Positions 5,407 through 21,535 of a stretch of 64,000 bases of DNA are shown piece by piece. The stretch is from Cryomorphaceae bacterium 1068 (GTDB taxonomy: Bacteria; Bacteroidota; Bacteroidia; Flavobacteriales_D; Cryomorphaceae): assembly GCA_027214385.1 (NCBI GenBank), contig JAPVXR010000001.1:62001-126000 (forward strand), given 5' to 3'. Each line of letters opens with the position of its first letter. Position 1 is the stretch's first letter. The notes beneath the pieces are model-generated. The model saw only the letters and a list, made by a program, of their open reading frames with translations. It was not told where the DNA came from and ran no database searches. The position numbers were made by a program, and so were the translations under genes.

Positions 5407-6689
5407 TTTGTTTTTTGATACACCCTAACGTAGTCGATTACCATCTGCTGCTTGGTCACGCTTTCATCCATTCCTTCAAGGCCTCCCCAGCCGCCACCCA
5501 TGGTGAGGTTTAGAATAAGGTTTTGAGCTTGACCAAATGGCCATGAAAGTTCAGAAGACGTATCGTCGTAAGTAAAGTATTCTACATCATCAACATAGGC
5601 AGTAATTCCATCAGGAGTCCAGACTACACCATAGGTATGAAACTCACTATTCATGTTTTCGACGGATGTGGTCCCTGTCGGCTGGTTTCCAAGTTTGAAA
5701 TAGTAAGCTCCGCAATGCGCAGAAGCGTGAGCTGTGCCATTTCCGGTCTCATTGTCCATTTGATAACCTACACTTTCGAGGATGTCAATTTCACCGCAAT
5801 ATGGCCATGACAATTCATCGACGTATTTGTCTCCGAGAGTCCAGCCCGCTGACCAATTTCCTTTTTCGGCGGGCACCTTTGCACGAAATTCCAGCTTTCC
5901 ATACAGAAATGAAGTCTTTCCTCTGGTCGTCAAGCGGGCGGAAGTCCATGGGTAACCTAAGTCATTTTTATGCGCTTCAATAATGAGATTTCCATTTTCT
6001 TGGCGAGCATTTTCAGGTCTGTTGACCGTATAGTATTGGAGCTCGCCATTTCCCCATCCCCAGTTTCCTATATCGTAGGTCCATTTTGTGGTATCTGCAA
6101 TACCATCTCCATCGAACTCATCGGCCCATACGATCTCCCAGCTATCACCTTCCATATTTTGGGTCAGTGTTAATGGGGTTTCTTCGTGCTTGCGCAAAAG
6201 CTCAAAATCTACCGAATGGATCTCAACGCCGTTCACCAAATGCAGGCGAATGTCATGTTTACCTTCTCTAAGTGGACTACCGTCTCGAGAGATTATTTGC
6301 ACCTTATCCGATTTGGCGATAGCCATATTACTCGTGATGTTGTAGGTGCGATCATCTGTATTGTGAACGTGATCTTCAATCCATACCATCGATGAATCAG
6401 ACATCCCTTTAACCGAAAGACTCACCCTGTAACGTCCCGAAAGAGGAACGTTAACCGAATATTCAAGCCAGCAATTATCGGCACAAGAAAGTACGGAATC
6501 AACTGCAGCTATTTCTCCTTCAGATGATGTGAAATCGCCCAGCTGCAATGAAAAATCATTCAGAATTTCAGTAAGTGCTTCCGCTTCTTTCTTTTCTTCT
6601 TTAGCCGGTGCATCAGCTTCACAAGCCATCAGGATGGCTCCAGCGAGAAAAAGCGTGCAAATTCTAATTATATGGGGTCTTACCTTCAT
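5403..6689 (-). CDS. GH16 endo-beta-1,3-glucanase (laminarinase-like), lipoprotein
   Basis: A 428-residue lipoprotein (lipobox MAC, Cys23). Residues 45-165 form a beta-rich domain that looks like a carbohydrate-binding module. The GH16 catalytic domain follows (about 185-427), with the signature EIDILE at 300-305: Glu300 should be the nucleophile and Glu305 the acid/base. WADEFDG at 188-194 and WGWGNGELQYYT further on are typical of laminarinases. The family cuts beta-1,3 or mixed beta-1,3/1,4-glucans. The gene starts at ATG 6689, sharing one base with the stop of the MFS gene (TAATG), and ends in TTGA with the GH3 gene. The three genes form one tightly coupled unit of transporter, endo- and exo-enzyme. 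Confidence 0.92.
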   Translation of the reverse strand: MKVRPHIIRICTLFLAGAILMACEADAPAKEEKKEAEALTEILNDFSLQLGDFTSSEGEIAAVDSVLSCADNCWLEYSVNVPLSGRYRVSLSVKGMSDSSMVWIEDHVHNTDDRTYNITSNMAIAKSDKVQIISRDGSPLREGKHDIRLHLVNGVEIHSVDFELLRKHEETPLTLTQNMEGDSWEIVWADEFDGDGIADTTKWTYDIGNWGWGNGELQYYTVNRPENARQENGNLIIEAHKNDLGYPWTSARLTTRGKTSFLYGKLEFRAKVPAEKGNWSAGWTLGDKYVDELSWPYCGEIDILESVGYQMDNETGNGTAHASAHCGAYYFKLGNQPTGTTSVENMNSEFHTYGVVWTPDGITAYVDDVEYFTYDDTSSELSWPFGQAQNLILNLTMGGGWGGLEGMDESVTKQQMVIDYVRVYQKTN

Positions 6690-8254
6690 TACTTTACCAA
6701 TATTGCTTCCAGTTCTTCCAGTGATTTCCCTTTGGTTTCAGGGACTTTTAAAACAATAAATATCAAGCCCAAGACGGCAAAGAATCCGTATAAAAAGAAG
6801 GTGGTGGCACTTCCCAGCACTTCTAATTCCCATGGGAATATCACTTGAACCAAGAAACTGATTGCGGAGTTGATCAAACCCACAAAAGAAATCGCGACGC
6901 CACGTATCCAATTCGGGAAAAGCTCCGAAAAGAGCACCCACATGACGGGGCCGATTGAAACCGCAAATGAGGCGACAAAACCGAGAATTCCCACTAGAAT
7001 TAAAACCGCGTTCATGTCCACAGCAGCCGTTAAAAACTGGGATTCATATTTCTTGAACTCCAATTCTCCAATAGCTTCGCTCATGTCGGCCTTGAAGGAT
7101 AGATCATCCTCGTATACTTTTCCTATGTATGGGGTTACCAAAGATTGGTCGATTTCGACAGAGAGCTTACTTACCGATTCATCAGTCAATTCATAGGTTG
7201 CCGAACTAAATCCGTAGGCCAAGATGAATAGGGCGATCGCCATTCCCGACACACCGAATACCAGAAGGGGCTTTCTGCCCAATCTGTCGATAAGCGATAT
7301 CGCAAGAACAGTGAAGGCAAGATTAATTAACCCGACTAAGATGGCTTGAGAAAATGATGCATCCGTTCCGATTCCCGATTGCTCGAATATCATTGGAGCA
7401 TAGAAGAAAACGGAATTGATACCCGTAATTTGTTGCAAGATTCCTATCACCAGACCAATAACTAAGACCAACCTTAGTGATGGATGAAATAATCTGGAGA
7501 CTGAGGTGACCTCTTCCTCATCCTCATTCTTTTTGTTGTTGATGCTGTCTCTTACATCGTCAATAATTTTTTTCGCCTCAGATTCATCCAAAGCTCGGCA
7601 CATGATTGTCATGGCTTCGTCGTATTTGCCCTTCATGGCAAGCCATCTAGGGCTCCTTGGTACTAAGAAAAGAGCAAAAAAGTAAAGTATGGCGGGAAGA
7701 GCTTCCAGCCCGAGCATCCAGCGCCAATTGTATTCCCCAAATTTCAGATCTTGAGCCCACTGAGCTTCAGAATCTCCGAGCTGCAAAATCAAATAATTGG
7801 TGAAAAAAGCTACTGATATACCCAATACGATGTTTAGCTGATTGAAGGACACCATTCTCCCTCTCATCCCCGGAGGTGATATCTCAGCAATGTACATGGG
7901 GGCAATAATCAATGAAATACCTACCCCGATTCCACCAAGCATTCTGGCAGCAACAAGAAAAGTGAAACTGGGTGCAAGAGCAGAACAGACTGCAGAAACA
8001 GTGTAAAGTAAAGCTGCAATGGTTAGGACTTTTTTTCGACCAACCCTGTCACTCCAAGGACCTGCAACCATCATTGCAAGTGTGGCCGTTAAGGTAAGTG
8101 AGCCCACAGCCCAGCCGAGTTGGAGCTTAGTAAGCTCAAATTCCAATTCGATAAACTTATTTACCCCTGAAATAACGGAGGCATCAAATCCCATAAGAAA
8201 TCCTCCAAGCGCTACAATGAGCGCTACCATTACGATAAATCTGGTCTTATTCAT
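6689..8254 (-). CDS. MFS sugar porter (sugar:proton symporter family)
   Basis: A 521-residue inner-membrane protein of the sugar porter family with 12 predicted helices. Family motifs are visible: DRVGRKK at 69-75, PRSPRWL at 199-205, QQITGINSVFFYAP at 274-287, DRLGRKP at 323-329 and PETKGKSLEELE at 505-516. An extended polar loop of about 60 residues (350-412) sits between helices 9 and 10, as in other Bacteroidota members. It is the first gene of a unit with GH16 and GH3 genes and most likely takes up the glucose or small gluco-oligosaccharides they release. A clean gap of about 110 bases upstream, after a terminator, should hold its promoter; I saw no copy of the locus operator there. Confidence 0.93.
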   Translation of the reverse strand: MNKTRFIVMVALIVALGGFLMGFDASVISGVNKFIELEFELTKLQLGWAVGSLTLTATLAMMVAGPWSDRVGRKKVLTIAALLYTVSAVCSALAPSFTFLVAARMLGGIGVGISLIIAPMYIAEISPPGMRGRMVSFNQLNIVLGISVAFFTNYLILQLGDSEAQWAQDLKFGEYNWRWMLGLEALPAILYFFALFLVPRSPRWLAMKGKYDEAMTIMCRALDESEAKKIIDDVRDSINNKKNEDEEEVTSVSRLFHPSLRLVLVIGLVIGILQQITGINSVFFYAPMIFEQSGIGTDASFSQAILVGLINLAFTVLAISLIDRLGRKPLLVFGVSGMAIALFILAYGFSSATYELTDESVSKLSVEIDQSLVTPYIGKVYEDDLSFKADMSEAIGELEFKKYESQFLTAAVDMNAVLILVGILGFVASFAVSIGPVMWVLFSELFPNWIRGVAISFVGLINSAISFLVQVIFPWELEVLGSATTFFLYGFFAVLGLIFIVLKVPETKGKSLEELEAILVK

Positions 8255-8405: not shown

Positions 8406-9734
8406 TTAGTTATTCACTACAATTTTACCCGTGTGGTTCTGACCTGAAACACTCACATTGTACAAGTAAATACCAGCAGCATAATTATTGGTATTAAACT
8501 CTACACGGAAGTTTCCGTTGGGTTGATTGTCGAATATCTTGTTTTCAACTATTCTTCCCGTAATATCAGTAAGTGTAATATTCACGTCACCTTGCTTTTC
8601 GAGGTTGTACTCGATGGTAACAAAATCAGTTGACGGATTTGGATATGCAGTAAGACCTGAAACAAATTCAGTGTCTTCTGCTGAAGTCAAACCGGGAATG
8701 CTAATGTTGTCGAAGTAATATGTGTCAGTTGTTGTCGATCCCGGATCAATCAAAACCACAAACTGCTCGATATCGGTAGATCCAATTACATCCGGAGCAA
8801 TATCGAAGGTCAAAGTTTCCCAAGTACTTGAAACTGAAGTTTCAGCTACCATCTCTTGAATCAATTCATTTGTTGATGTCTGGAGAGAGAAAATAACCGT
8901 GCTGGGTGCGTTAGGATCCCAAATATCCATGGTAACCTGACTTGAATTATCATTCAGCATAAGCGCTCCGTCCGTTCTTGCGATGAAATTATCGTCAGTG
9001 GCACCACTACGAACATACGTTCCTACGTATTCCGATGGATTAGTAGACATGTCAGGATTAACAACACGACGCAATGCAGGAGCATTCGAAGCAGCGATGT
9101 AATTCACATTCTGCTGACATTCAAAATCGTTCAAAATTGATTCGTTAGTCTCTACGTCTGCACAAGGATCACTTACCAATTCAGGTCCGTTCAAATTATC
9201 CCAGTAATAAGTTTCATTCGTGGTAGCCCCTGGGTTAAAAAGGAGTGCCAAACGATCAACGCTATTGCTTGGAACACTTGCATCAGGCTGCTCGAAATAT
9301 GAGAAAGTAAGAGTTTCCCAAGCATTCGAAGTCTGAGTAGAAGTCAGATATACTGAATGTCTCCCCGTTGGAAAATTTTCCGGTAGCGCAAGTGTCGAGT
9401 TCTCAAGGGTAATCTGAACTGTTGTTCCCGCAGCCGGACTCCAAACGTCGATACTCATTTGCTTCGCTCCGGTAATATAGTCCGTCACATTAAGCATGGG
9501 GTTATCAATAACAATCACATCGAAGGGTGCGCCCGGATCGCGGATGTATTGTGCTGCTACAATGCTGGTGTTTACACCTGATTGATCAGGATTTAATTGG
9601 TAAGGGATAAAAACACCGTTTTCAAAGAAGTATTCGCACTTTCGTACATCTTCGAAGTTCTCCCAAAGCGTTTGGGCCTGCAAGCCCATGCTGAGCGCTG
9701 CAGTCAAAAGTAATGTTGAGTAAATTTTTTTCAT
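8406..9734 (-). CDS. T9SS type A secreted protein with two CBM-like modules
   Basis: The start is taken at the ATG complementary to 9732-9734, which gives a proper Sec signal peptide (MKKIYSTLLLTAALSMGLQAQ region); a longer frame upstream would overlap the GH16 gene. The 442-residue protein has two related jelly-roll-like modules (about 22-185 and 190-345), each with a D(V/I)W(S/D)P motif, an NAWETLTF or STWETLTF motif and YY(W/F)DN, matching the modules of the 411-3023 protein. A T9SS type A domain (about 360-442) ends in a typical basic C terminus. The gene follows the GH16 gene by 40 bases and is closed by a terminator. A role as surface glucan-binding protein is inferred. Confidence 0.85.
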   Translation of the reverse strand: MKKIYSTLLLTAALSMGLQAQTLWENFEDVRKCEYFFENGVFIPYQLNPDQSGVNTSIVAAQYIRDPGAPFDVIVIDNPMLNVTDYITGAKQMSIDVWSPAAGTTVQITLENSTLALPENFPTGRHSVYLTSTQTSNAWETLTFSYFEQPDASVPSNSVDRLALLFNPGATTNETYYWDNLNGPELVSDPCADVETNESILNDFECQQNVNYIAASNAPALRRVVNPDMSTNPSEYVGTYVRSGATDDNFIARTDGALMLNDNSSQVTMDIWDPNAPSTVIFSLQTSTNELIQEMVAETSVSSTWETLTFDIAPDVIGSTDIEQFVVLIDPGSTTTDTYYFDNISIPGLTSAEDTEFVSGLTAYPNPSTDFVTIEYNLEKQGDVNITLTDITGRIVENKIFDNQPNGNFRVEFNTNNYAAGIYLYNVSVSGQNHTGKIVVNN

Positions 9735-9774
9735 GATAATAGGGTTTAAGTGGTTTGAAATTAAATGGTTTGAA

Positions 9775-10644
9775 TTATTGATAAACTCTGACGTAATCAA
9801 CTTCCATTGTTTGTGGAAACTGAGTAGAAAAATCGGGATTTCCGGGAAGATTTCCTCCAACGGCTACATTTAGAATAACATGAAATTCTTGATCAAAAGG
9901 CCATGTGGTTGGCAGCACTGAAGATCGTGTATTAGGCACTCCAACGTCTATACCGTCCACCTGAAAGAGAATGCAGTCTTCAGTCCATAGAACTGAGTAA
10001 GTGTGAAAATCTTCAGAAAAATCTACGGTATCTACGGGTAAATACTGAGTATCGTACCGCCAAAAGTCGTGACCGTAATGTATGGTGCCGAATATGCTAT
10101 TCGTTTCACTACCAATATTTTCCATAATGTCGATTTCTCCGCTGGCAGGCCAGATGCCGTAGACAGTATCTGTGGGAAGCATCCAAATCGCAGGCCATAG
10201 TCCTTGACCTTTAGGAAGCTTGGCGCGTACATCAACTCGGCCGTATTTGAAATCAACTTTATTTCTGGTCACCATGCGGGCGGAGGTATATTGCCTTCCT
10301 TGATAGAAAGGGATTTCTTTTTTGGCAGTAATGATCAATTTTCCATCTTCCACTCGAGCATTCTCTTCTCGCATGGTGTAGTACTGAAGCTCATTGTTTC
10401 CCCAACCACATAAGGTTCCGTTGACAGTATCAAGTTGACATCCGTCTGCAGTGTCGTAGCCCCAGTATTGAGTGTTGATAATGTCGCCGTCAAATTCATC
10501 TGCCCACGTCAAGGTCATATTTTCCTTGGCTGGAAACTGACATCCCCCGACTTCTGTAACAGGTTTGGTGCAAGAGGATAGTGCTAAAGCAATTATTGAT
10601 AAAACAGCAATAGAATGAGAAATTCTTAAAATTCTAATGTTCAT
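9775..10644 (-). CDS. GH16 endo-beta-1,3-glucanase (laminarinase), lipoprotein
   Basis: Start chosen at ATG 10644, which gives a lipoprotein leader (LALSSC, Cys25 of 289 residues). The GH16 domain fills the rest: WADEFDG near 47-53, WGNNELQYYT at 81-90 and the catalytic EIDIMENIG at 170-178 (Glu170 nucleophile, Glu175 acid/base, Asp172 between). This is the compact laminarinase form without an extra domain, unlike the 428-residue GH16 nearby. The gene is the first of a two-gene unit with the T9SS protein at 8406-9734. Its promoter region contains the operator shared with the 15436 operon and a TATGTTTG element, so induction by the divergent regulator is likely. Confidence 0.93.
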   Translation of the reverse strand: MNIRILRISHSIAVLSIIALALSSCTKPVTEVGGCQFPAKENMTLTWADEFDGDIINTQYWGYDTADGCQLDTVNGTLCGWGNNELQYYTMREENARVEDGKLIITAKKEIPFYQGRQYTSARMVTRNKVDFKYGRVDVRAKLPKGQGLWPAIWMLPTDTVYGIWPASGEIDIMENIGSETNSIFGTIHYGHDFWRYDTQYLPVDTVDFSEDFHTYSVLWTEDCILFQVDGIDVGVPNTRSSVLPTTWPFDQEFHVILNVAVGGNLPGNPDFSTQFPQTMEVDYVRVYQ

Positions 10645-10668
10645 TTCGATTGGATTGTACATTATACA

Positions 10669-10761
10669 CAAACATAACTCAGAGCAAGGTGGTTGTCACC
10701 TTTTAATATACATCTTGCCTACATCGATTATTGAGGCTTCCTCAACAAGACTACATCATTA
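10669..10761 (-). promoter_or_regulatory. Predicted activator-dependent promoter and operator of GH16 gene
   Basis: Read on the minus strand towards the GH16 gene: TAATGATGTAGT (10761-10750), 24 bases, GATGTAGGCAAGATGTA (10725-10709), 32 bases, then TATGTTTG (10676-10669), a perfect match to the Bacteroidota -7 element TAnnTTTG. No -33 TTTG is visible, which fits a promoter that needs an activator. The same blocks with nearly the same spacing occur before the outer-membrane operon at 15436. A small inverted repeat, TTGAGG-CTT-CCTCAA (10731-10745), lies between the two operator parts. The divergent regulator gene starts about 90 bases away. Confidence 0.65.
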
Positions 10762-10847: not shown

Positions 10848-13775
10848 TTGCGCATTGTGAAAAAACAAACGTCCCAATTCAAAATCAGGGCACTTTTCGC
10901 CCAATTGTGTCTGATTTACATATTCAGTCTTGTTCATACTTTCGAAAGTAAGGGGCAAATGCAAACCCCTCTGATTTCTAATTACGGAAAGGAAGTTCAC
11001 CGTGGAGGCACACAGAATTGGTCTATAACTGCTCATAAAGATGGAGTCATTTATTTCGGTAATAATAGCGGTGTGCTAGTTTTCGATGGGCATGAATGGA
11101 CAGTGGTTCCCTTGCCAAACCGCACATTTGTGCGATCACTGCTTCAAAAAGACTCAGGTCAATTATATGTGGGTGGTCAAAATGAATTTGGATATTTCTC
11201 AAACGGAAGGTTATCAGTCGAAAACTACCATAGCCTGAAACATTTGGTCCCTGAAGAGTACGCTGATTTTGAAGATGTTTGGGAAATATTTGACACTGGC
11301 GAGTCAACCTATTTTTGTACAGAAAAGGCTGTTTTTATAATCAGTAATGGCAATTGTGAGGTGCTATTACCTAAGGATGAGCGATTTGAGAATTTTTTTC
11401 TTTTTGATAATCAACTCTGTGTTCAAGAGATCGGAACGGGGCTACTTCTTTTTGATGGTAACAAGCTCGTCCCTTTTTTAAGTGATCCAATAATTGTTGG
11501 TCAAAGGATTGCTTCGATGCTGAGCATATCGGATGGTGATCATCTCCTTTTCACGCAAGAAGGAGCAATTTTTCGCTTCGATGGATCCGTGTTAGAGCCT
11601 TTTGGCGGCGAAGCTGAAAATTTTACCAAAGAATTCAAACAATATGTTTCTATCCGATTAAAAAATGGATCAATAGCCATAGGTTCTACCCAAAATGGAT
11701 TGATAATTATCAATGAGTCGGGTGAGGTCTTGGAGCATTACAATTCCGATTCGGGGCTGGCCAACAATACCTTGCTCTCTCTCTACCAAGATCGTTCAGA
11801 AAACATCTGGATGGGACTGGATAATGGAATAGCTTACTTAGAAATTAACTCTCCCTTCAGTCAGATCAATCAGATCAATGGCCTCGAAGGAACAGGCTAC
11901 GCTGCGTTGCTGCATAAGGAGTCATATTACTTTGGGACCAACTTGGGATTGTACCGCGCGAAAAGCGGGGAGGATAACTTCGAGCTTGTTGACAATACAA
12001 AGGGGCAGATCTGGAGCTTACAGACCCTTCATGACGGTTTTATCATCAACGCAGATGGTGGAGCCCTCTATTTCGAGAATGATGTGATTACAAGAATTTC
12101 TGATGTCAGAAGCTCTTGGAAATTCTATGAGCTTGCCGGATCAGATGGCCTCTTTCTTCAAGGATCGTATGGGGGTCTTTATCTCTATCAAAAATCCGAT
12201 AGGGACGCAGTACCATTGAAGTTCCTTGGAAAACTGGACGGATTTGACGAGTCTTCACGAATCTTTGAGGAAGATGAGGATGGCTACATCTGGGTGGCCC
12301 ATGCTTATCGCGGGCTATTCCGGTTGAAACCCGATTATAAAAACTTGCGATTTGAAGAAGTGAGGCAATTTGGAGTAGCAGAAGGACTGCCGGAAGATTT
12401 GTACATAACCGTTTCTAAGATTCGAAACGAAATGGTTTTTGCGACAATGAAAGGGATATTCCGTTTTGATAGATCTACTGAGAAATTTGAAGTGCATGAG
12501 GAGCTCACTACATTGCTGGGTAAAGAGAGGAGCGTACAAAGACTTGTAGAGGATAAGCTTGGGAATATCTGGTTTTCGACGGATAGAGAATTCGGGCTTG
12601 TGGAAATTTTGGAAACCGGTCTATACAACGATGTCGAAGTGCTCTATTTTAACCAGATTCAAGATGAATTGGTAGATGGCTTCGAAGATGTTTTTACTCT
12701 ATCAGATGCCGCCGCCTTTATACCCGTTGAAAGCGGATTCTACAAATACAAATTAAGATGGTCCGCACAGCCTCCTGAATTTGAATACCCACTGAGGATT
12801 ACGGAAATTTACCTGACAAGTACCTCCGATTCATTAATTTCCGACTACTACTCTTCCGATACTATTGCTGAAACCAAATTGCCACCGAAGGAAGGTGATA
12901 TTCGTTTTCACTTTAATCTGCCCACTTTCGGAAAGCTAAATCAGGTAGTCTATCAGTATACCTTATCAGATGAAGATAACGGTTGGTCTGACTGGACCAC
13001 CGAGACAAAAAAAGAATACAGCAACCTTACTCATGGAGACTATACCTTCCAAGTAAGAGCTAAGAATGCATTTGGCCGTATTTCTGAGCCGGTTTCATTT
13101 GGTTTTTCTGTAATGCCTCCATGGTACAAGACTACTGCTGCGCAGGTTGGCTTTGTCGTTCTGGGCTTCCTGGTTCTTCTTACTGTCGTAAGATTTGTTG
13201 CCATTCGAGAGGCTAAAAAGACGGAAGAGGTAAAGCAGCAGTCCATCCTAACCATTCGTGAAAAAGAGGAAGAGCACCAGCGTGAAAAGGAGCAGTCGGA
13301 AAATGAGATTATTCGTCTTCGAAATGAAAAACTCCGTGCAGAAGTGAGTCACAAAAACGCGGAACTGGCCTCCACGACAATGCACCTTGTGCAAAAAAGC
13401 GAGATGTTGCAAAACATCAAAAAAGATCTGAGTGACCTGTCTACGGATGGGGATGAATCCGTCAAAAAAAGAGTTAAACAGATTCAGCGATTGATTACAG
13501 ATGATGTGAGGCTTGACAAGAACTGGGAGCGGTTTGAGACGCACTTCGATCAGGTTCACGCCAACTTCTTCAAGAACTTACGCGCTAAGTATCCGGAGCT
13601 TACGCCCAAGGATCAAAAGTTATGCGCTTATTTAAGAATGAACTTGGCCACTAAAGAAATCGCACCGCTTCTCAATATCTCCGTGCGCGGGGTTGAAATC
13701 AGTCGATACCGACTTAGGAAAAAACTGAACCTCGATTCAGATACCAACTTGGTCTCCTTTATCATGGAAATTTAA
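10848..13775 (+). CDS. Membrane-spanning propeller/Y_Y_Y regulator with LuxR-like HTH
   Basis: A 975-residue one-component sensor-regulator. After a leader (about 5-36) come beta-propeller repeats (about 50-600) with blades such as ENIWMGLDNGIAYL, then a Y_Y_Y domain (about 690-758) with the YQYTLSDEDNGWSDW pattern, one transmembrane helix (about 763-785), a charged coiled coil (786-860) and a C-terminal LuxR-type helix-turn-helix (about 915-970; TPKDQKLCAYLRMNLATKEIA). It resembles the sensor half of hybrid two-component systems of Bacteroidota but lacks histidine kinase and receiver domains, so a periplasmic signal must reach DNA binding directly. The start is uncertain: TTG 10848 or GTG 10857. 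It likely controls the glucan genes on both sides. Confidence 0.87.
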   Translation: MRIVKKQTSQFKIRALFAQLCLIYIFSLVHTFESKGQMQTPLISNYGKEVHRGGTQNWSITAHKDGVIYFGNNSGVLVFDGHEWTVVPLPNRTFVRSLLQKDSGQLYVGGQNEFGYFSNGRLSVENYHSLKHLVPEEYADFEDVWEIFDTGESTYFCTEKAVFIISNGNCEVLLPKDERFENFFLFDNQLCVQEIGTGLLLFDGNKLVPFLSDPIIVGQRIASMLSISDGDHLLFTQEGAIFRFDGSVLEPFGGEAENFTKEFKQYVSIRLKNGSIAIGSTQNGLIIINESGEVLEHYNSDSGLANNTLLSLYQDRSENIWMGLDNGIAYLEINSPFSQINQINGLEGTGYAALLHKESYYFGTNLGLYRAKSGEDNFELVDNTKGQIWSLQTLHDGFIINADGGALYFENDVITRISDVRSSWKFYELAGSDGLFLQGSYGGLYLYQKSDRDAVPLKFLGKLDGFDESSRIFEEDEDGYIWVAHAYRGLFRLKPDYKNLRFEEVRQFGVAEGLPEDLYITVSKIRNEMVFATMKGIFRFDRSTEKFEVHEELTTLLGKERSVQRLVEDKLGNIWFSTDREFGLVEILETGLYNDVEVLYFNQIQDELVDGFEDVFTLSDAAAFIPVESGFYKYKLRWSAQPPEFEYPLRITEIYLTSTSDSLISDYYSSDTIAETKLPPKEGDIRFHFNLPTFGKLNQVVYQYTLSDEDNGWSDWTTETKKEYSNLTHGDYTFQVRAKNAFGRISEPVSFGFSVMPPWYKTTAAQVGFVVLGFLVLLTVVRFVAIREAKKTEEVKQQSILTIREKEEEHQREKEQSENEIIRLRNEKLRAEVSHKNAELASTTMHLVQKSEMLQNIKKDLSDLSTDGDESVKKRVKQIQRLITDDVRLDKNWERFETHFDQVHANFFKNLRAKYPELTPKDQKLCAYLRMNLATKEIAPLLNISVRGVEISRYRLRKKLNLDSDTNLVSFIMEI

Positions 13776-13915: not shown

Positions 13916-15205
13916 TTAAAGCTCTCCGCCACTGTAGAAAGGAAAGTTGGCTGTAGCGGCATTTCCATTTCCATCATAGACGTAAAGAAACAATCGATAA
14001 GGCCCTTCCTTCGTCGGGGCGCGAAAGCTAATCTCCCCATTTTTCGGTTCGCCCTCTACTTTCATGTCGATGGCTTCAGGCTTGGACTCTTTGTCTCCAC
14101 CCACTTTAATATCAGTACTTTCAGGAAGAATTTCCCAGCGGTAAGTCAATTGATCACCCTCGGCGTCCGTTGCTTCCACTTTAGCCGTAGCTACCTTTCC
14201 GCTTTCGAGGTAAACTCCGTCAAATCTGGTTTTACCATTGAGTAGATAATTTTCAATTTGAGGAGATCTGTTGTCCGGGTATTTGCCTGACCACCCCTTC
14301 TGCAATTCGTCCATTACTCCGGTTTCCTTTCCGTCTTCCAAGAAAAGGCCGTACCAAGTAGGAGTGGTCTCTTGCTTTTGTCCCCAAAGGAAAACATACG
14401 AACCTATACACATGTCGGGATCGCGCAGGATTCCTTGCTCATAGCGCAATTTGTACGATGCTGCCTTCTCAGTACTCGTCTGCTCAATCGGTGCTCCCCA
14501 TGGTGCTTTAGCTACTTCCCAGTGACCGTCAGGCCCCCATTCCGTGATTACGTAAGGCTTATCCCATCCAAAGGCGCGGAGCATATTGTCAATTCCGATA
14601 ATCTCACCGTAGGTATTAATGCCATATACATCAATTGCAGGAGCTCGTTCCTTGACCAGCTGCACTTCGGCAACATCCAGACCCGCCGTAACGGTCATCG
14701 TCGGATGGTTCGGATCTATCTCATGAATCATTTCGGCTATGTCGTTAATGGCATCCCAAACCTTAAAGTCAGAATAAAATAAATCCGTTTCGTTGCCGAT
14801 TCCCCACATAAGAATAGCCGGATGATCCTTGTACTCTTGAACGACTTCCGTGAAGCGGGCAAGTTGAGCTTCTACGGCTCGGGAGTCATCGTAGTCAAAA
14901 CCTTGACGCTCGCAACCAACCCAAAGGCCAAATAGAACAGTCATTCCTTTCTCGTGGGCTTCGTCTAAAACGGCTATCGCCTCATGTGCTCCCCATGTTC
15001 TCACTGAATTAGCTCCGTAAGCTTTCGCCCGATCCATTTCGGTTTGACCGCCTACGCCTTTGATGTAATAAGGTTTTCCGTCTCTCAACAATTCCCATTT
15101 GCCGTCCTTTTCTACCACTTCTACTTTTATGACTTGCGCATAACCTGAAACCGTGAATAAAAAAATTAGTGCAAATGCGGCCAACGAGGATTTTAACATT
15201 TTCAT
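13916..15205 (-). CDS. Secreted clan GH-A TIM-barrel glycoside hydrolase (GH2-like)
   Basis: A 429-residue protein with a Sec leader (1-23, cleavage after GYA). Residues about 30-310 form a TIM barrel of the GH2/GH5/GH17 clan: the acid/base Glu139 is in GIGNET and the likely nucleophile Glu222 is in VITEWGPDG. A beta-sandwich domain (about 315-425) with an EATDAEGDQLTYRWEI stretch follows. The GH2 TIM-barrel family description fits best, but the N-terminal GH2 sandwich domains are absent; beta-1,3-glucanase or glucanosyltransferase activity is inferred only from its neighbours. It lies between the regulator and the outer-membrane operon and shares the 15206-15435 promoter region with the latter. 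It carries no T9SS domain or lipobox, so it should be periplasmic. Confidence 0.75.
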   Translation of the reverse strand: MKMLKSSLAAFALIFLFTVSGYAQVIKVEVVEKDGKWELLRDGKPYYIKGVGGQTEMDRAKAYGANSVRTWGAHEAIAVLDEAHEKGMTVLFGLWVGCERQGFDYDDSRAVEAQLARFTEVVQEYKDHPAILMWGIGNETDLFYSDFKVWDAINDIAEMIHEIDPNHPTMTVTAGLDVAEVQLVKERAPAIDVYGINTYGEIIGIDNMLRAFGWDKPYVITEWGPDGHWEVAKAPWGAPIEQTSTEKAASYKLRYEQGILRDPDMCIGSYVFLWGQKQETTPTWYGLFLEDGKETGVMDELQKGWSGKYPDNRSPQIENYLLNGKTRFDGVYLESGKVATAKVEATDAEGDQLTYRWEILPESTDIKVGGDKESKPEAIDMKVEGEPKNGEISFRAPTKEGPYRLFLYVYDGNGNAATANFPFYSGGEL

Positions 15206-15278: not shown

Positions 15279-15360
15279 TAATGATGTAGTGTTAATCGAC
15301 AAGATGTAGGCTTGATGTAAGAGACAAAAGTTTTTTTAGTCAAAGAATTATTTAACATTG
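15279..15360 (+). promoter_or_regulatory. Predicted activator-dependent promoter and operator of OM operon
   Basis: Read towards the gene at 15436: TAATGATGTAGT (15279-15290, identical to the block at 10750-10761 on the other strand), 12 bases, GATGTAGGCTTGATGTA (15303-15319, 15 of 17 identical), 33 bases, then TAACATTGTGTAT (15353-15365), which matches TATGTTTGTGTAT before the GH16 gene in 10 of 13 positions. The -7-like element is TAACATTG, one base off TAnnTTTG. The gap between the two operator parts is 12 bases shorter than in the other copy, about one helical turn. The divergent GH-A enzyme gene starts at 15205 and could share control. Confidence 0.65.
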
Positions 15361-15435: not shown

Positions 15436-17472
15436 ATGCCCAATCACTTCTCTTTTATGAGATGTACATTGATTCTCTTGATTGGTCTTTTTAGCCTAAC
15501 GGCAAAAGGCCAAGATAGAACTGCAGCCGATTCCTCGGCTTTGGCCAATGAGGCAATAAGAAGTTTTGAGGATCAATTTTTAAAGCAGTCTGCAGGGATT
15601 CAATACGACTCTCTCTTTGTGGATAAAAAGCTTCGTGAGCGACCACAAAAACTTACAGCCTTTGGATACTATAGGCTATTCGCTTATCAACGAAACATTA
15701 CAGAACCTTATCCCGGTTTGGCTCCTTTTGAAAAAGCCTTGAGTATAGGTGATGGATACCGAGAGCCTATGCTGTCTCTATCCGTAGTAGCCCGACCGAA
15801 TGGAAAGGCCAGTTTCGGAACGGAACTGTTCATATTTACTCCTTATGATGGCAGTATAGAAGGAAATGTGTTCTCTACCAACTTGGGTTTGAATTTTTAC
15901 GGAAACTTTAGAACTCAACACGGGAATTTTGGTGTAAGAGCAGGGGGTATACACTGGTACAATTTGAGCCCTTTTACAATGGGCGTTTTCCAGATTTTGG
16001 ACCGCTTCACCATATTTGACAGGACACCTTGGGAAGGCGTCAACAATACTGAGAAATACGATAACTACTATAAGTCGGGACTCACCAGCGCAGGAGATTT
16101 AAGATGGAATAATCAAGCTTTTCAAGGGCTTATTATTAATGGAGGGCGTTTACCCGGCGATTGGGCCTTTGACCTGATGTGGGGAAAAACTCAAGTCAAC
16201 GGAGGATTAGCAGGTGGCTTGAACCCAAACAATGAAAGCTACTTTCCTCCCACACTGGATGCAGGAAATATTCCAACTTATGGCGGTTTTGCAGGGACAG
16301 ATCGTCAGTTACCTTCCATTATTCAAGGGGGTAAGATTGCCAAATCCTTTGACGGAGGCAGACAGACGCTCTCCTACAATGGTTTTGTGAGTCAAACCGC
16401 TCTTGATAGTATAGATCAAGATCTGGTTAGACAGTATCAAGTTCATACCCTTGCTTTAGACCTTAAAGTAATGGATGTAACTGTGACGGGTGAGCTCGGC
16501 GCAGGCTCCTACAAGAGTCCGACATACTCAGAAAAATGGGGCGAGGCTTTAATGCTTCGTTTTTTAATTCCTAAAAAGTACACCTTCATTCCGATTGACT
16601 TCCAGGTGTACAGAATATCCAAGAATTTCTTCAATGAAAATGGAGAAATTGCAACAAATTCAAATCCTGAAATCCTAGCGGATCGTGGTCTAACAGTGAA
16701 CGCCAATGGGGCAGGAGGGCAGATGGCGCTCGTAAACCAGTTGGTGCACAATAGGCAAGGGGTAAACATCAACACGGAACTTGAATACGGAAAGCTGACC
16801 CTTGCCGGTGGTATAGGATGGTCAGCTGAAATAGATACAGAAGCCCAAGCATTGAGTTTCGTACACAGAATCAACGGGTTGGCACTTTCACGTGTTTACA
16901 ATCCATTTCCTGAAGGCGCAACGGGACCTACGGTTTTCGGTCCATACGGTCGAAAGTTTTCCTTCTTTAGAGGTGTATCAGAAGTAGTTCAGACGACTGA
17001 TTTGGATCCCGAAACGGCCTTGGCGCAGAACCGCAAATTCTTTAAGGCTGTAGATATTCAAGCCAAGTACAAGACAACACTGTTCGATCGTGATTTATTC
17101 CTCAACTATATCGGTTCGTTTAATTCCGTCTCAACAAAGCTGGGGGCTGTGCCGGTATACAACGATGAGGCATACTTATATGCACAATATCACGAAGTGG
17201 ATCTTTACTACGAAGTGATTCCAAAATTCATTGCCACCGCATATTTCGGTCTTGAAAATATTCGAGGTGGAAACGATACGCAGTGGGATGAGGTAACACA
17301 GCTTCCGCTTGATCAATTGGGCACCGCTATCGGTATTGGCTTTGACTGGCAAATAGCCGAAAACTCAGGACTCTATGTTCGCCATAGATGGATGAGCCTT
17401 GAAGACCGAAGTTTTCAGGATGATAAATTCCGAGGAACAGAACTAACCGTTGAACTCAAAACCTTTTTCTAA
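15436..17472 (+). CDS. Predicted outer-membrane beta-barrel protein, first of glucan operon
   Basis: A 678-residue protein with a Sec leader (about 8-25, LTAKGQ). A short helical, charged segment (26-70) is followed by a long run of alternating hydrophobic/polar strands rich in Tyr, Phe and Gly, ending in TVELKTFF with a terminal Phe, as expected for an outer-membrane barrel. There is no TonB box, carboxypeptidase-like domain or plug, so it is not a SusC-type transporter. I do not recognise the exact family. ATG 15436 or the Met at residue 8 may be the start. It overlaps the next gene by one base (TAATG) and heads a four-gene operon behind the locus operator, so a role in glucan uptake is inferred. 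Confidence 0.75.
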   Translation: MPNHFSFMRCTLILLIGLFSLTAKGQDRTAADSSALANEAIRSFEDQFLKQSAGIQYDSLFVDKKLRERPQKLTAFGYYRLFAYQRNITEPYPGLAPFEKALSIGDGYREPMLSLSVVARPNGKASFGTELFIFTPYDGSIEGNVFSTNLGLNFYGNFRTQHGNFGVRAGGIHWYNLSPFTMGVFQILDRFTIFDRTPWEGVNNTEKYDNYYKSGLTSAGDLRWNNQAFQGLIINGGRLPGDWAFDLMWGKTQVNGGLAGGLNPNNESYFPPTLDAGNIPTYGGFAGTDRQLPSIIQGGKIAKSFDGGRQTLSYNGFVSQTALDSIDQDLVRQYQVHTLALDLKVMDVTVTGELGAGSYKSPTYSEKWGEALMLRFLIPKKYTFIPIDFQVYRISKNFFNENGEIATNSNPEILADRGLTVNANGAGGQMALVNQLVHNRQGVNINTELEYGKLTLAGGIGWSAEIDTEAQALSFVHRINGLALSRVYNPFPEGATGPTVFGPYGRKFSFFRGVSEVVQTTDLDPETALAQNRKFFKAVDIQAKYKTTLFDRDLFLNYIGSFNSVSTKLGAVPVYNDEAYLYAQYHEVDLYYEVIPKFIATAYFGLENIRGGNDTQWDEVTQLPLDQLGTAIGIGFDWQIAENSGLYVRHRWMSLEDRSFQDDKFRGTELTVELKTFF

Positions 17473-19268
17473 TGTTGGGTATGAAGAATTCTATACTATT
17501 AAAATACCTTTTGGCAGTAGCCGTTTTCTTTTCGATAGCTATCGAAGGACAAGCGCAGGTCGAAGGAGCCTTATCTGATGAAGAGGCAGAAACTTTTCTT
17601 AAAGGCGTCAACTTTAATGGTCTTGGCCGGGTATACCTGCGCCAAACGGATATTGAAGGTGATGTACTGGAAAATGACTCGCTAACACCGAGAAGACTTA
17701 CGGATGGTGAGTTTTTGCTCGATCTTAAAATCAACGCTACTCCCAATGAGAAGACGGAAGTTCAATCGATTCTTCGTCTTAGAAATGAGTTTGGAGGGTT
17801 TTTTGGAGCAGGTCAGGCAGTCGAAGTACGTGAACTATGGGCTAGAGGAATTATAGCCAATCGAATAGAGTATCGCGTAGGAGATATGGACATAGAGATG
17901 TCTCCTTTTACATTCTATATGCCTACTGAAGAAGGAGTGATCAATCAGCCTTCTGCCTTTGAATTGCAAAGAGATGTGATCTATTACGAGCAGTTTTATA
18001 CCAATGAAAATTCGCGAAGGATGCAAGGTGCCGACCTGAACTTCGGACTAAAGTTTTCGCAAGTACTAAAGGATGCCGACCTCCGTGGTTTTATTGCACG
18101 GGTTAGAGGTACTGACTTTTTGACGATACCCACCCGCTGGTCATCAGGAGGGGAATTGAAACTGCGAACCAGAAAGCTGGTGGATAAAACCGGAACGCAC
18201 GCCGATTTAGGTTTTAATATCGCCTACACATTCGACGACCTCCAATCGGGTGACGCCAATTCAGGTATCAGAAACACGGTGTACACATTCGAATACAATG
18301 TAATAGGTTACGAGACCGATAAGATGGAATACTCTCTTTTTGGTGAAATGGGTAGAAGTGTGCTGACTTCAAAAAATGATTCAGCCACCTTCTTTACAAC
18401 CGATGACGTTTTCGCAACGGTAAATGCAGGAGCTCGTTTTAAAGAAAAAGACCTTTTCGTTCATGCCGGTTTTTCTGACGTAGGTCCCGACTTCTTCAGT
18501 ATTGGTGCGCAAAGCAAAAGAGTAGATTTCGATGCCACTAAATCATTTTACAATAGAACGGGTGCGGATCAAGATGTGAGAAATACGACTCTCTTCGACC
18601 TTAGCCGTGATGTGGCCATCTATACCTACCAACTTTCAGATAGGTTGATGACTTATGACCCTCGTTTTTCGAATACCTTCCCTTATGGCCCCGCCACTCC
18701 AAACCGACGTGGTTTGAATTATGGAGCCGATTACGAGAACTCAAAGGTTCAAGCCAGCTTAAATGGTGCTGTAATGTCTGAAATTCGCGGGCAGGGAACA
18801 GAAGAGCTCAAAGACTTCTTCTTGATTCAAGCAAAGGCAAGTGTGAATGTGAACAAATTCCTGAAATGGGAAAACAACATTAACGTGACTTTCGGTTACC
18901 AATATGAGAGTACAAACAGAGGCGGGATTGAAGTCGAGCAAGTTGACTTGAACTCGAATCTCTTCGAAGCGGGTCTGGAACTTGAGCTTTTTGAAGATTT
19001 TGAAGTACTGTTAGGAGCTAAGATTTTGGATGCAGTAGGAAGCGACTACATCCCGCGAATCGACGAATTTAACGATGTAAGAGATTTTCCCGGTAGAACT
19101 GAGTATGATGACACTGAAACGCTCCTTGCGGGAGGGGTCAAGTACACGTTCAAAGAAGGGATTTATCTAACACTCCAGTACCAATCATTTGATGCAACGG
19201 GACGCTCTGACTCGTTCAGAGATTATACCCTGAATCAAATCTTTGTTTTATACACCATGAAATTTTAA
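17472..19268 (+). CDS. Predicted outer-membrane beta-barrel (porin-like) protein
   Basis: A 598-residue protein with a Sec leader (IAIEGQA, cleavage near residue 29). The rest is a chain of amphipathic beta strands (for example GLGRVYLRQTDIEGD, VQSILRLRNEFGGFF, EYRVGDMDIEMSPF) ending with LNQIFVLYTMKF, a terminal Phe typical of outer-membrane barrels. No plug or TonB box is present. Its start overlaps the stop of the preceding barrel gene, so both are made together. The family is not recognised by name; together with its partner it is the best candidate in the locus for an outer-membrane channel. A 16-bp perfect palindrome lies in its leader codons (17531-17546). Confidence 0.72.
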   Translation: MLGMKNSILLKYLLAVAVFFSIAIEGQAQVEGALSDEEAETFLKGVNFNGLGRVYLRQTDIEGDVLENDSLTPRRLTDGEFLLDLKINATPNEKTEVQSILRLRNEFGGFFGAGQAVEVRELWARGIIANRIEYRVGDMDIEMSPFTFYMPTEEGVINQPSAFELQRDVIYYEQFYTNENSRRMQGADLNFGLKFSQVLKDADLRGFIARVRGTDFLTIPTRWSSGGELKLRTRKLVDKTGTHADLGFNIAYTFDDLQSGDANSGIRNTVYTFEYNVIGYETDKMEYSLFGEMGRSVLTSKNDSATFFTTDDVFATVNAGARFKEKDLFVHAGFSDVGPDFFSIGAQSKRVDFDATKSFYNRTGADQDVRNTTLFDLSRDVAIYTYQLSDRLMTYDPRFSNTFPYGPATPNRRGLNYGADYENSKVQASLNGAVMSEIRGQGTEELKDFFLIQAKASVNVNKFLKWENNINVTFGYQYESTNRGGIEVEQVDLNSNLFEAGLELELFEDFEVLLGAKILDAVGSDYIPRIDEFNDVRDFPGRTEYDDTETLLAGGVKYTFKEGIYLTLQYQSFDATGRSDSFRDYTLNQIFVLYTMKF

Positions 19269-19271
19269 GTA

Positions 19272-20312
19272 ATGGAAACGACTAGGAACAACACAATGAA
19301 AAATAAATTTGGATTAAAGAGAATACTGCCATTGGCTTTTATTCTCGTTTTGTTGGCTGCTTGTGATCACGACACCGAACCTGAAACCCCATCTTTGTTT
19401 GATCGATTTGCACCACTTGAGCTCATAGACTCTTTGCAAGCCAGCAGCGTTCAAGTAGATTTCAGTGCAGGCGAGTCTATTTCTTTCACTGCCGAGTTCA
19501 ATAAGAATATTGATTGGGTAGTTGAGATTACGGGGCAAGTCAGTGGAGGAATCCAACGTATCGAAGGATTTGATCGTTTTGTAGAGCCTGCCAATGCCAC
19601 ATGGAGTGGGAATACTACTGAACTTCCTCTCTTCAGAACAGAACCTTGCACGGTCGTGCTTAAGGTTCCTGAAGAACCTGATTTTGGTGACACCCTTATG
19701 GTGGAAATTGTGGGTACTCTGAACTACGAAGGAACCTTGGTCACGGACTTTGAAGACAATCCCGGCGCATGTATTCAACTCGGAGATTTTGAATTTGAAT
19801 TGGCCAATTCAGGAAGAAGAGATGATATCATCACCGCCGCTCAAGGGGATTTCTTTTACCGTTTGGCAGGAACAGATAATGAGACCGGTGGACCCACCGA
19901 CAACTTCTTCGTTGGTCTTGCCCGAATTTTTGCCTGTATCACCGGAGAGACCTATATTCAAGTGCCGACTACCGTGCCCGAAAACCTTTACCTCAACTTA
20001 TTCGTCGAGGGTCGTGCAACACCCTATACCAGGGTGGTTTTGGGTTTAATTATCGATTCTAACGATAGTGGTGATTTTGAAGAAGGGCCTGATGCTATAC
20101 GGTCCTTGGAATTTGACCCTACATACACAGGCTGGCGATTGCAATCCTTCACCGGTGCTGATTTTGGTGTCACTCAGGAAGAGCTGCAAAAAGTCGTAGG
20201 AATAGAACTTGTTCTGATCTCGTTGAATAATTTGCAGCCCTCGCCAAGAGAGGAGGTCGGATTTGAAACTGATTACATTATTTTCACTCAGAACGGACCG
20301 CTTGAGTTATAA
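19272..20312 (+). CDS. Hypothetical lipoprotein of the glucan operon
   Basis: A 346-residue protein with a lipoprotein signal (LLAACDHD, Cys31). The start may be ATG 19272 or the Met nine codons later, which gives a more usual leader length. Residues 45-150 look like an Ig-like sandwich (SAGESISFTAEFNKNIDWVVEITG), and residues about 165-345 resemble a jelly roll ending in VGFETDYIIF, like the final strand of the binding modules in this locus. It follows the barrel gene by three bases. The position, between an outer-membrane barrel gene and a binding-module lipoprotein gene, suggests a surface or periplasmic binding role; no enzyme motif is visible. Confidence 0.7.
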   Translation: METTRNNTMKNKFGLKRILPLAFILVLLAACDHDTEPETPSLFDRFAPLELIDSLQASSVQVDFSAGESISFTAEFNKNIDWVVEITGQVSGGIQRIEGFDRFVEPANATWSGNTTELPLFRTEPCTVVLKVPEEPDFGDTLMVEIVGTLNYEGTLVTDFEDNPGACIQLGDFEFELANSGRRDDIITAAQGDFFYRLAGTDNETGGPTDNFFVGLARIFACITGETYIQVPTTVPENLYLNLFVEGRATPYTRVVLGLIIDSNDSGDFEEGPDAIRSLEFDPTYTGWRLQSFTGADFGVTQEELQKVVGIELVLISLNNLQPSPREEVGFETDYIIFTQNGPLEL

Positions 20313-20323
20313 TCATTAGGCAA

Positions 20324-21535
20324 ATGGAGAACTTTAAGAAAACAACATTTATTGGTTTTTTCGGCATTGCGCTTCTCTTAAGTGGCTGTGTAGAGTTTAA
20401 AGAAATTACGCTCTACGACGGTGTGAAGCCCGCTCCCGAAATGAAAAAACCTGAAATGATCAGTAAGGTTGTTGAACCCGTGGTGTACGACGATAATCCA
20501 TCTGATATGTGGGGTATTGAAGATGAAATCTGCAAACGTGCGGAGTATACTTCGGATGTGGTTTACTCCGGAACACAGGCGATTAAAATCTCTTGGGACC
20601 GAAATGAGGAGGGATGCATCTTTGCCGGTTTTGGAATCGGATGGGATGGTTGGGCAGGTAAAGACTTGACAGCCATCATGGATCATGCCGCCTTTCGCTT
20701 TTACGTTCGCACTACTGAGGGACGTGCCTTTGGTTTACCTATCGTTCTGACACTCGAAGATTATAGCGGTGGTATGGGCTTTTGTTATACCGCCAACAAG
20801 TATTTTGAAAGAACCTTTATCGATACCCTTTGGCAGAAAATAGAAGTGCCTCTGGCTGACTTTGACTTGGATACCGAAAACCTGGATATCACGAACGTTA
20901 AACAGCTGCAGTTTGAACTTCAACAAGCGGGAAGTGTCTATATCGATGATATTGATTTGGTTTTCTACACACCACCCGTGGTAGAGCCATGGCTGGAAGA
21001 AGAAGTTCTTCCCGATCCTTTAGCGATGCCCGTAACCATCTTTGATGATGCCTTTATCAATAATAATGGCTGGGGAATGATGGATTACAATTGCCGCACA
21101 GTAGAAATTACTGATGAGCTGGCTTTTAAAGGGTCTAAAGCAATCAGTGCGAAGTGGAATGACACCGGCGATTGCGATGTCATGTTTATCGCAGCCAGCT
21201 GGAACAAGTGGAACCCCATTGACTTTACGAAAGGGAATTACGAAGACTTTGCATTTGAATTCTATATCTATAATCGAGGGGAGGCCTCATCTGACCTTAA
21301 CTTGAAGTTTGGGTTAACAGATTACAATGGCAATTACATTGCTACTGAAGTTACCGCAAAATATGCCGACAAGGACCTATTCAACCAGTCCTGGACAAGA
21401 GTTTACATTCCCATTACTGACCTGACAGGTTTAGCCATAGATTACACCAATATCAAGCAGCTTGGTTTCCAATTGAACAAATCGGGAGATTTGCTGATAG
21501 ATGAAATCAGAATGGTTCGAAGAAACGTGAACTAA
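20324..21535 (+). CDS. Lipoprotein with two carbohydrate-binding-like modules
   Basis: A 403-residue lipoprotein (LLLSGC, Cys22). It contains two homologous modules, about 35-218 and 225-400. Both share a VYSGTQAIKISW or AFKGSKAISAKW strand, a W-KW or W-GW region followed by AFRFYVRT or AFEFYIYN, a segment W-(K/R)(I/V)-(V/I)P(L/I)-(A/T)D, and a final strand (V/L)(Y/L)IDDI or (L)LIDEI. This is the pattern of CBM11/CIA30-like jelly rolls. It is the last gene of the four-gene operon and ends before a convergent gene. It is the likely cell-surface or periplasmic glycan-binding lipoprotein, in the place where SusD or SusE proteins are found in classical loci; that role is an inference. Confidence 0.78.
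   Translation: MENFKKTTFIGFFGIALLLSGCVEFKEITLYDGVKPAPEMKKPEMISKVVEPVVYDDNPSDMWGIEDEICKRAEYTSDVVYSGTQAIKISWDRNEEGCIFAGFGIGWDGWAGKDLTAIMDHAAFRFYVRTTEGRAFGLPIVLTLEDYSGGMGFCYTANKYFERTFIDTLWQKIEVPLADFDLDTENLDITNVKQLQFELQQAGSVYIDDIDLVFYTPPVVEPWLEEEVLPDPLAMPVTIFDDAFINNNGWGMMDYNCRTVEITDELAFKGSKAISAKWNDTGDCDVMFIAASWNKWNPIDFTKGNYEDFAFEFYIYNRGEASSDLNLKFGLTDYNGNYIATEVTAKYADKDLFNQSWTRVYIPITDLTGLAIDYTNIKQLGFQLNKSGDLLIDEIRMVRRNVN

Follow-up and report, generated by a model that had tools for sequence, protein, structure and literature searches.

How does a bacterium of the phylum Bacteroidota take up beta-1,3-glucan at a locus in which no SusC or SusD is found? SusC/SusD is usually taken as the route for this glycan, and the corresponding genes are the hallmark by which polysaccharide loci of Bacteroidota are found and the diets of marine communities are inferred; laminarin is a major marine carbon pool. 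The question is raised by a 64-kb stretch of DNA from Cryomorphaceae bacterium 1068 (the window; all coordinates are positions within it unless another contig or locus is named). Two outer-membrane barrels, B1 and B2, and two lipoproteins, LP1 and LP2, are encoded there next to glucanase genes, with no SusC or SusD among the Pfam matches of the locus. We consider it likely that, at a beta-1,3-glucan (laminarin-type) locus free of SusC/SusD, B1-B2-LP1-LP2 serves to capture the glycan and to take it up across the outer membrane.

The features of the locus are collected in Table 1. All four genes lie on one strand. Gaps between B1/B2, B2/LP1 and LP1/LP2 amount to –1, 3 and 11 bases by ORF coordinates, just as a sequence-only reading of this DNA had described them. 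Its assignment of two barrels and two lipoproteins is borne out by AlphaFold2 models of the former and by lipobox cysteines in both of the latter. GH158 is a family of endo-beta-1,3-glucanases. The product of the gene divergent from B1 is GH2-like in Pfam, and its residues 21–423 align to the GH158 entry 9oro (E 9e-109); from this identity the likely substrate is beta-1,3-glucan. Because GH158, two GH16 and one GH3 enzyme, an MFS carrier, type IX secreted proteins and a Y_Y_Y/LuxR-type regulator occur together, we read the locus, from its domain content, as a beta-1,3-glucan utilisation locus (PUL). Homologues of the 870-aa type IX secreted protein recur beside related loci, and in many relatives GH3 is followed by a gene of 276–281 aa (L119:18092-18934, L126:18068-18895) with at best a marginal GH16 match, possibly a divergent glycosidase.

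Table 1. Features of the locus, with positions in the 64-kb window
Feature	Position	Strand	Remarks
Type IX secreted protein, 870 aa	411..3023	-	part similar to PDB 8qx6 (PKD domain-containing protein)
GH3 beta-glucosidase	3124..5406	-	Pfam
GH16 glucanase, second	5403..6689	-	Pfam
MFS sugar transporter, predicted inner-membrane step	6689..8254	-	Pfam
Type IX secreted protein, no enzyme domain recognised	8406..9860	-	Pfam/NCBIfam
GH16 glucanase	9775..10671	-	domain match
Operator, second copy, 1 mismatch	10709..10725	-	upstream of GH16-CBM-MFS-GH16-GH3 genes and regulator
Regulator, Reg_prop/Y_Y_Y sensor with LuxR-type HTH	10848..13775	+	domain matches
GH158 endo-beta-1,3-glucanase	13916..15205	-	divergent from B1; 9oro E 9e-109; 6pal E 2e-75
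Operator GATGTAN4TGATGTA	15303..15319	+	divergent GH158/B1 promoter region
B1, outer-membrane barrel, 678 aa	15436..17472	+	no plug domain; C-terminal Phe; position matches CHU_1276
B2, outer-membrane barrel, 598 aa	17472..19268	+	~22 strands; no plug domain; C-terminal Phe; position matches CHU_1277
LP1, lipoprotein, 346 aa	19272..20312	+	acidic N terminus (C-DHDTE) resembling an export signal; predicted to bind glycan at the surface; position matches CHU_1278
LP2, lipoprotein, 403 aa	20324..21535	+	two CBM30/CBM11-like modules; conserved N-terminal motif; position matches CHU_1279

At no more than one mismatch, GATGTAN4TGATGTA occurs twice in the 64 kb, against 0.05 occurrences expected. The GH158-B1 intergenic region is conserved among relatives, and the motif (≤1 mismatch) stands between GH158 and B1 in 17/17 related loci, in agreement with the earlier claim that the four genes sit behind the locus operator. 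It is also present at the GH16/regulator junction in 10 of the 17, in two of these ten partly or wholly inside the predicted regulator ORF, and had no match elsewhere in the 17 loci; in the others this junction lay outside the stretch covered or gave no match. The operator of the relatives usually comprises two copies about 31 bases apart. Another candidate, GTGTTAAT, was weaker than GATGTAN4TGATGTA and was discarded. A common operator at both promoter regions makes it probable that the four genes are co-regulated with the glucanase genes, and the Y_Y_Y/LuxR-type regulator probably reads it.

Predicted singly with AlphaFold2, as the sequence-only reading had proposed, both B1 (mean pLDDT 79.8, pTM 0.79) and B2 (mean pLDDT 89.5, pTM 0.85, with DSSP listing about 22 strands) come out as barrels. 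In both models the first strand lies about 45–70 residues from the N terminus, leaving no plug-sized domain, and passage through such plugless barrels may be passive. Neither protein matched any specific family in Pfam or NCBIfam, and a PDB sequence search returned no related solved structure; among orthologues scanned singly (73 of B1, 69 of B2) weak generic barrel matches were seen in a few only. The remark that neither barrel family is recognisable thus stands, and in neither sequence nor fold searches did the barrels prove to be well-known, unrelated families. Fold searches with B1 and B2 gave many unrelated barrels tied at Z 13–16, with TM up to 0.46; the barrels returned included pilus ushers, AlgE, OprD-type porins, siderophore receptors and the barrel part of a SusC. 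Family assignment by structure was given up, since only generic, tied barrels were returned and no family could be named; with unrelated barrels tied, the direction of transport is not readable either.

Pilus ushers, which appear among the neighbours of both barrels at Z of about 15, tied with porins, would suit a set that displays or secretes glucanases at the surface, its barrels serving as an export or anchoring platform and its lipoproteins holding enzyme and substrate. We regard this as unlikely: the proteins that the locus secretes have type IX sorting tails and therefore an export route of their own. AlgE is a neighbour as well, and AlgE exports alginate, so that the barrels might be thought to export beta-glucan made by the cell. 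That is scarcely credible for a locus which encodes a sugar importer, GH3 and endo-glucanases, with no glycosyltransferase or synthase among its Pfam-annotated genes, and whose paralogous sets adjoin catabolic genes such as NagB. The constant pairing of two different barrels suggests either a complex or a different step for each. The mirror-tree correlation between B1 and B2 is 0.94, a value of little weight as it ignores species phylogeny. A lone second B1-like gene, 26% identical, was seen near a complete set (L051:200-2017, minus strand), its own B2 being absent from the stretch read.

LP1 has no Pfam or NCBIfam family, a sub-threshold lipoprotein-site match apart. Acidic residues after the lipobox cysteine are a known surface export signal of Bacteroidota. 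At least two of them at +2 to +6 were counted in 70/86 LP1 orthologues, in 2/59 LP2 orthologues and in 35/89 other lipobox ORFs of these loci, which makes surface exposure of LP1 probable. LP2 has a conserved N terminus of its own (C-x-x-[FM]-K, then LYD) and scores 39.9 bits against Pfam CBM30 (curated cut-off 27, E 5e-10), most strongly on its first half. The second half repeats the CBM30-like sequence pattern, in keeping with the two binding-like modules noticed earlier; two CBM30 stretches are counted at a laxer threshold. A CBM30 match was obtained for all 15 LP2 orthologues scanned, from 15 species (E up to 0.01), and in six of them (L040, L041, L043, L044, L047, L048) a CBM9-like domain replaces the second CBM30-like module in the alignment, a swap of binding modules. 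Neither lipoprotein matched SusD, and a comparison of LP1 with LP2 gave no support for treating them as relatives. In Crocinitomicaceae-type loci (L043:13283-14527, L090, L098, L081 and others) the signal peptide of LP2 is a plain one, and its mature N terminus, e.g. DTLILDEVEVYGKK, is similar to the TonB-box region found in receptors of Bacteroidota; these are binding proteins with a TonB-box-like start and without plug or barrel.

Conservation around glucanase genes, a check which the sequence-only reading had also proposed, was found across relatives. B1 is present in 40/100 relatives, and 20 loci around B1 show B1-B2-LP1-LP2 in this order, together with GH158, GH16 and GH3. Loci with full flanks (at least 8 kb on each side of B1; n=26, from Flavobacteriales, Saprospiraceae and other Bacteroidota) contained B2 in 26 cases, LP1 in 25, LP2 in 26, GH158 in 25, GH16 in 19 and GH3 in 16. 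Gene order in one high-GC locus (L073/L240) was set aside, its reading frames having been misassigned by ORF calling. When 84,980 species genomes were scanned with B1 alone, blind to neighbours, 119 relatives were obtained; the best 80 of the 119, which were used and from which the 26 full-flank loci come, bear names of Flavobacteriales, Saprospiraceae, Lewinella, Rhodothermia and others. Under even sampling, B1 was detected in 48/396 Bacteroidia genomes, from 29/199 genera; outside Bacteroidia, three genomes of the phylum contain B2. Viral contigs yielded no relatives. B1-B2-LP1-LP2 is a conserved unit, and, its four genes being kept together across the phylum, their association is far beyond chance. 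In other families a sodium:solute symporter (SSF) replaces MFS and a NUDIX/AraR-type protein replaces the Y_Y_Y regulator, while the four genes and GH158 stay; varying partners around a constant core fit a machine with interchangeable partners. Because the set travels with beta-1,3-glucan-cutting enzymes across many Bacteroidota, an alternative to SusC/SusD uptake is probable.

Among the 26 full-flank loci SusC and SusD were each recorded in none, which, as single-sequence profiles were used, means 'not detected'. Uptake could proceed through a SusC/SusD pair encoded elsewhere, the set merely capturing or sensing glucan; the genome of the window does have two full-length SusC and one SusD, and SusD is commoner in B1 carriers (27/40, against 13/40 of the non-carriers sampled; mostly one copy), a count that also led us to reject a scarcity of SusD as a carrier trait. 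However, the sole SusD lies with one SusC beside a GH13 amylase on another contig, capture needs no two barrels, and SusD went undetected in 8/8 tested genomes of one small order that carry at least one such set. We think this explanation very improbable. The second full-length SusC is located on contig C4 (262958-266002), with no SusD detected.

The gene order itself has a precedent. In Cytophaga hutchinsonii, chu_1276-1280 has been described as an 'atypical PUL' for cellulose (Zhang et al. 2025, PMC12016534), made up of two outer-membrane proteins, two beta-sandwich binding proteins and one endoglucanase, with no SusC/SusD, and reported in three species, C. hutchinsonii, C. aurantiaca and Sporocytophaga myxococcoides (PMC12016534). 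The earlier phrase 'complex of unknown type' therefore holds in that no family can be named, and does not hold in that the gene order was already known. The precedent proteins are located in the outer membrane, and growth on the glycan requires them: mutants lacking CHU_1276, CHU_1277 or CHU_1279 use cellulose poorly or not at all (PMC12016534). The effect of losing CHU_1276 or CHU_1277 on cell-associated beta-glucosidase activity, which becomes lower (PMC5553014), speaks for the display of enzymes by the barrels. Against it, growth on 0.1% glucose is also impaired by loss of CHU_1276 or CHU_1279, and the CHU_1279 mutant loses growth on cellulose with endoglucanase and beta-glucosidase activities down by only about 25% (PMC12016534).

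Window B1, B2 and LP1 are homologous to those of a cellulose-type set (L170-L172), and window LP2 is weakly related to the CHU_1279-like protein of L170 (p 6e-4). This 380-aa protein has aromatic residues at 89, 92, 180, 256, 259 and 350, matching six positions of the 375-aa CHU_1279 (W89, F92, F180, Y253, F256 and F343; PMC12016534). Judging by gene order and these residue positions, C. hutchinsonii chu_1276-1279 is most likely the cellulose member of this group of systems.

Distant B1-B2-LP1 sets were also found beside genes for other glycans: GH18, NagB and an SSF carrier (chitin type; L163, L164, L166-L168, L233-L235), GH9 and once GH3 (cellulose type; L170-L172), and GH13 and GH97 (starch type; L169, L236). 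Further sets adjoin GH16/GH3 without GH158. B2 is homologous across the types, with 387–506 bits against the beta-glucan profile and about 27–39% identity between types, and tree building resolves the chitin, cellulose and starch types, all from one small order (ten genomes), as one fully supported clade each. We lean, by a modest degree, towards a reading in which Bacteroidota possess, across the phylum, a second machine for glycan uptake that needs neither SusC/SusD nor TonB. B1-B2-LP1 would be its core, divided into clades by substrate (beta-1,3-glucan, cellulose, chitin, starch), and the C. hutchinsonii cellulose cluster would be one of its members.

In the uptake scheme that we favour for the window, surface-exposed LP1 and LP2, with its CBM30-type modules, would bind glucan at the barrels, where GH158 and GH16 surface enzymes would cut it. 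Oligosaccharides would cross the outer membrane via B1 and/or B2, without SusC/SusD; GH3 would finish the degradation in the periplasm, and the MFS carrier (SSF in relatives) would import the sugar. The four proteins may form one physical complex, and the barrels would translocate the glycan. With other binding lipoproteins and enzymes, the same core may serve cellulose, chitin and starch in relatives.

The kind of system thus has a precedent, if a barely characterised one, and its spread is unexpectedly wide. New are barrel families unnamed in Pfam and NCBIfam, phylum-wide and tied to beta-1,3-glucan; no description of the set was found in the open-access papers searched. If so widespread a set replaces SusC/SusD, surveys based on SusC/SusD miss such loci, those for laminarin included. 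The puzzle posed by C. hutchinsonii, how cellulose fragments are taken up without SusC/SusD, would become testable through related machinery, with soluble substrates and in other hosts.

We compared the set with three known kinds of system. AlgE, OprD/OccK and chitoporin are beta-barrels without a plug, like the B1 and B2 models; B1 and B2 differ in being predicted to be larger (about 22 strands in B2), in having no sequence relation found to them, and in always being paired with a second barrel and lipoproteins. Co-localisation of glycoside hydrolases, predicted surface glycan-binding lipoproteins and a regulator is shared with the SusC/SusD-type PUL. With the GH158-bearing beta-1,3-glucan locus of gut Bacteroides (PMC7157763) the likeness extends to the class of substrate, to enzymes of GH158 and GH16/GH3, to an outer-membrane barrel and to lipoproteins that bind glycan at the surface; in the window set, two plugless barrels stand in place of a plugged TonB-dependent SusC and SusD. 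Closest is chu_1276-1280, whose succession of barrel, outer-membrane protein, beta-sandwich protein and bimodular CBM11-like binding protein is that of the window: two barrels and then two binding proteins on the same strand, without SusC/SusD, an order also seen in L170-L172, where it ends in GH9. The window set differs from it in its predicted substrate, beta-1,3-glucan, in having GH158 in place of the endoglucanase and in its regulator, and sets of the window type are spread far more widely than the three species reported for the C. hutchinsonii type.
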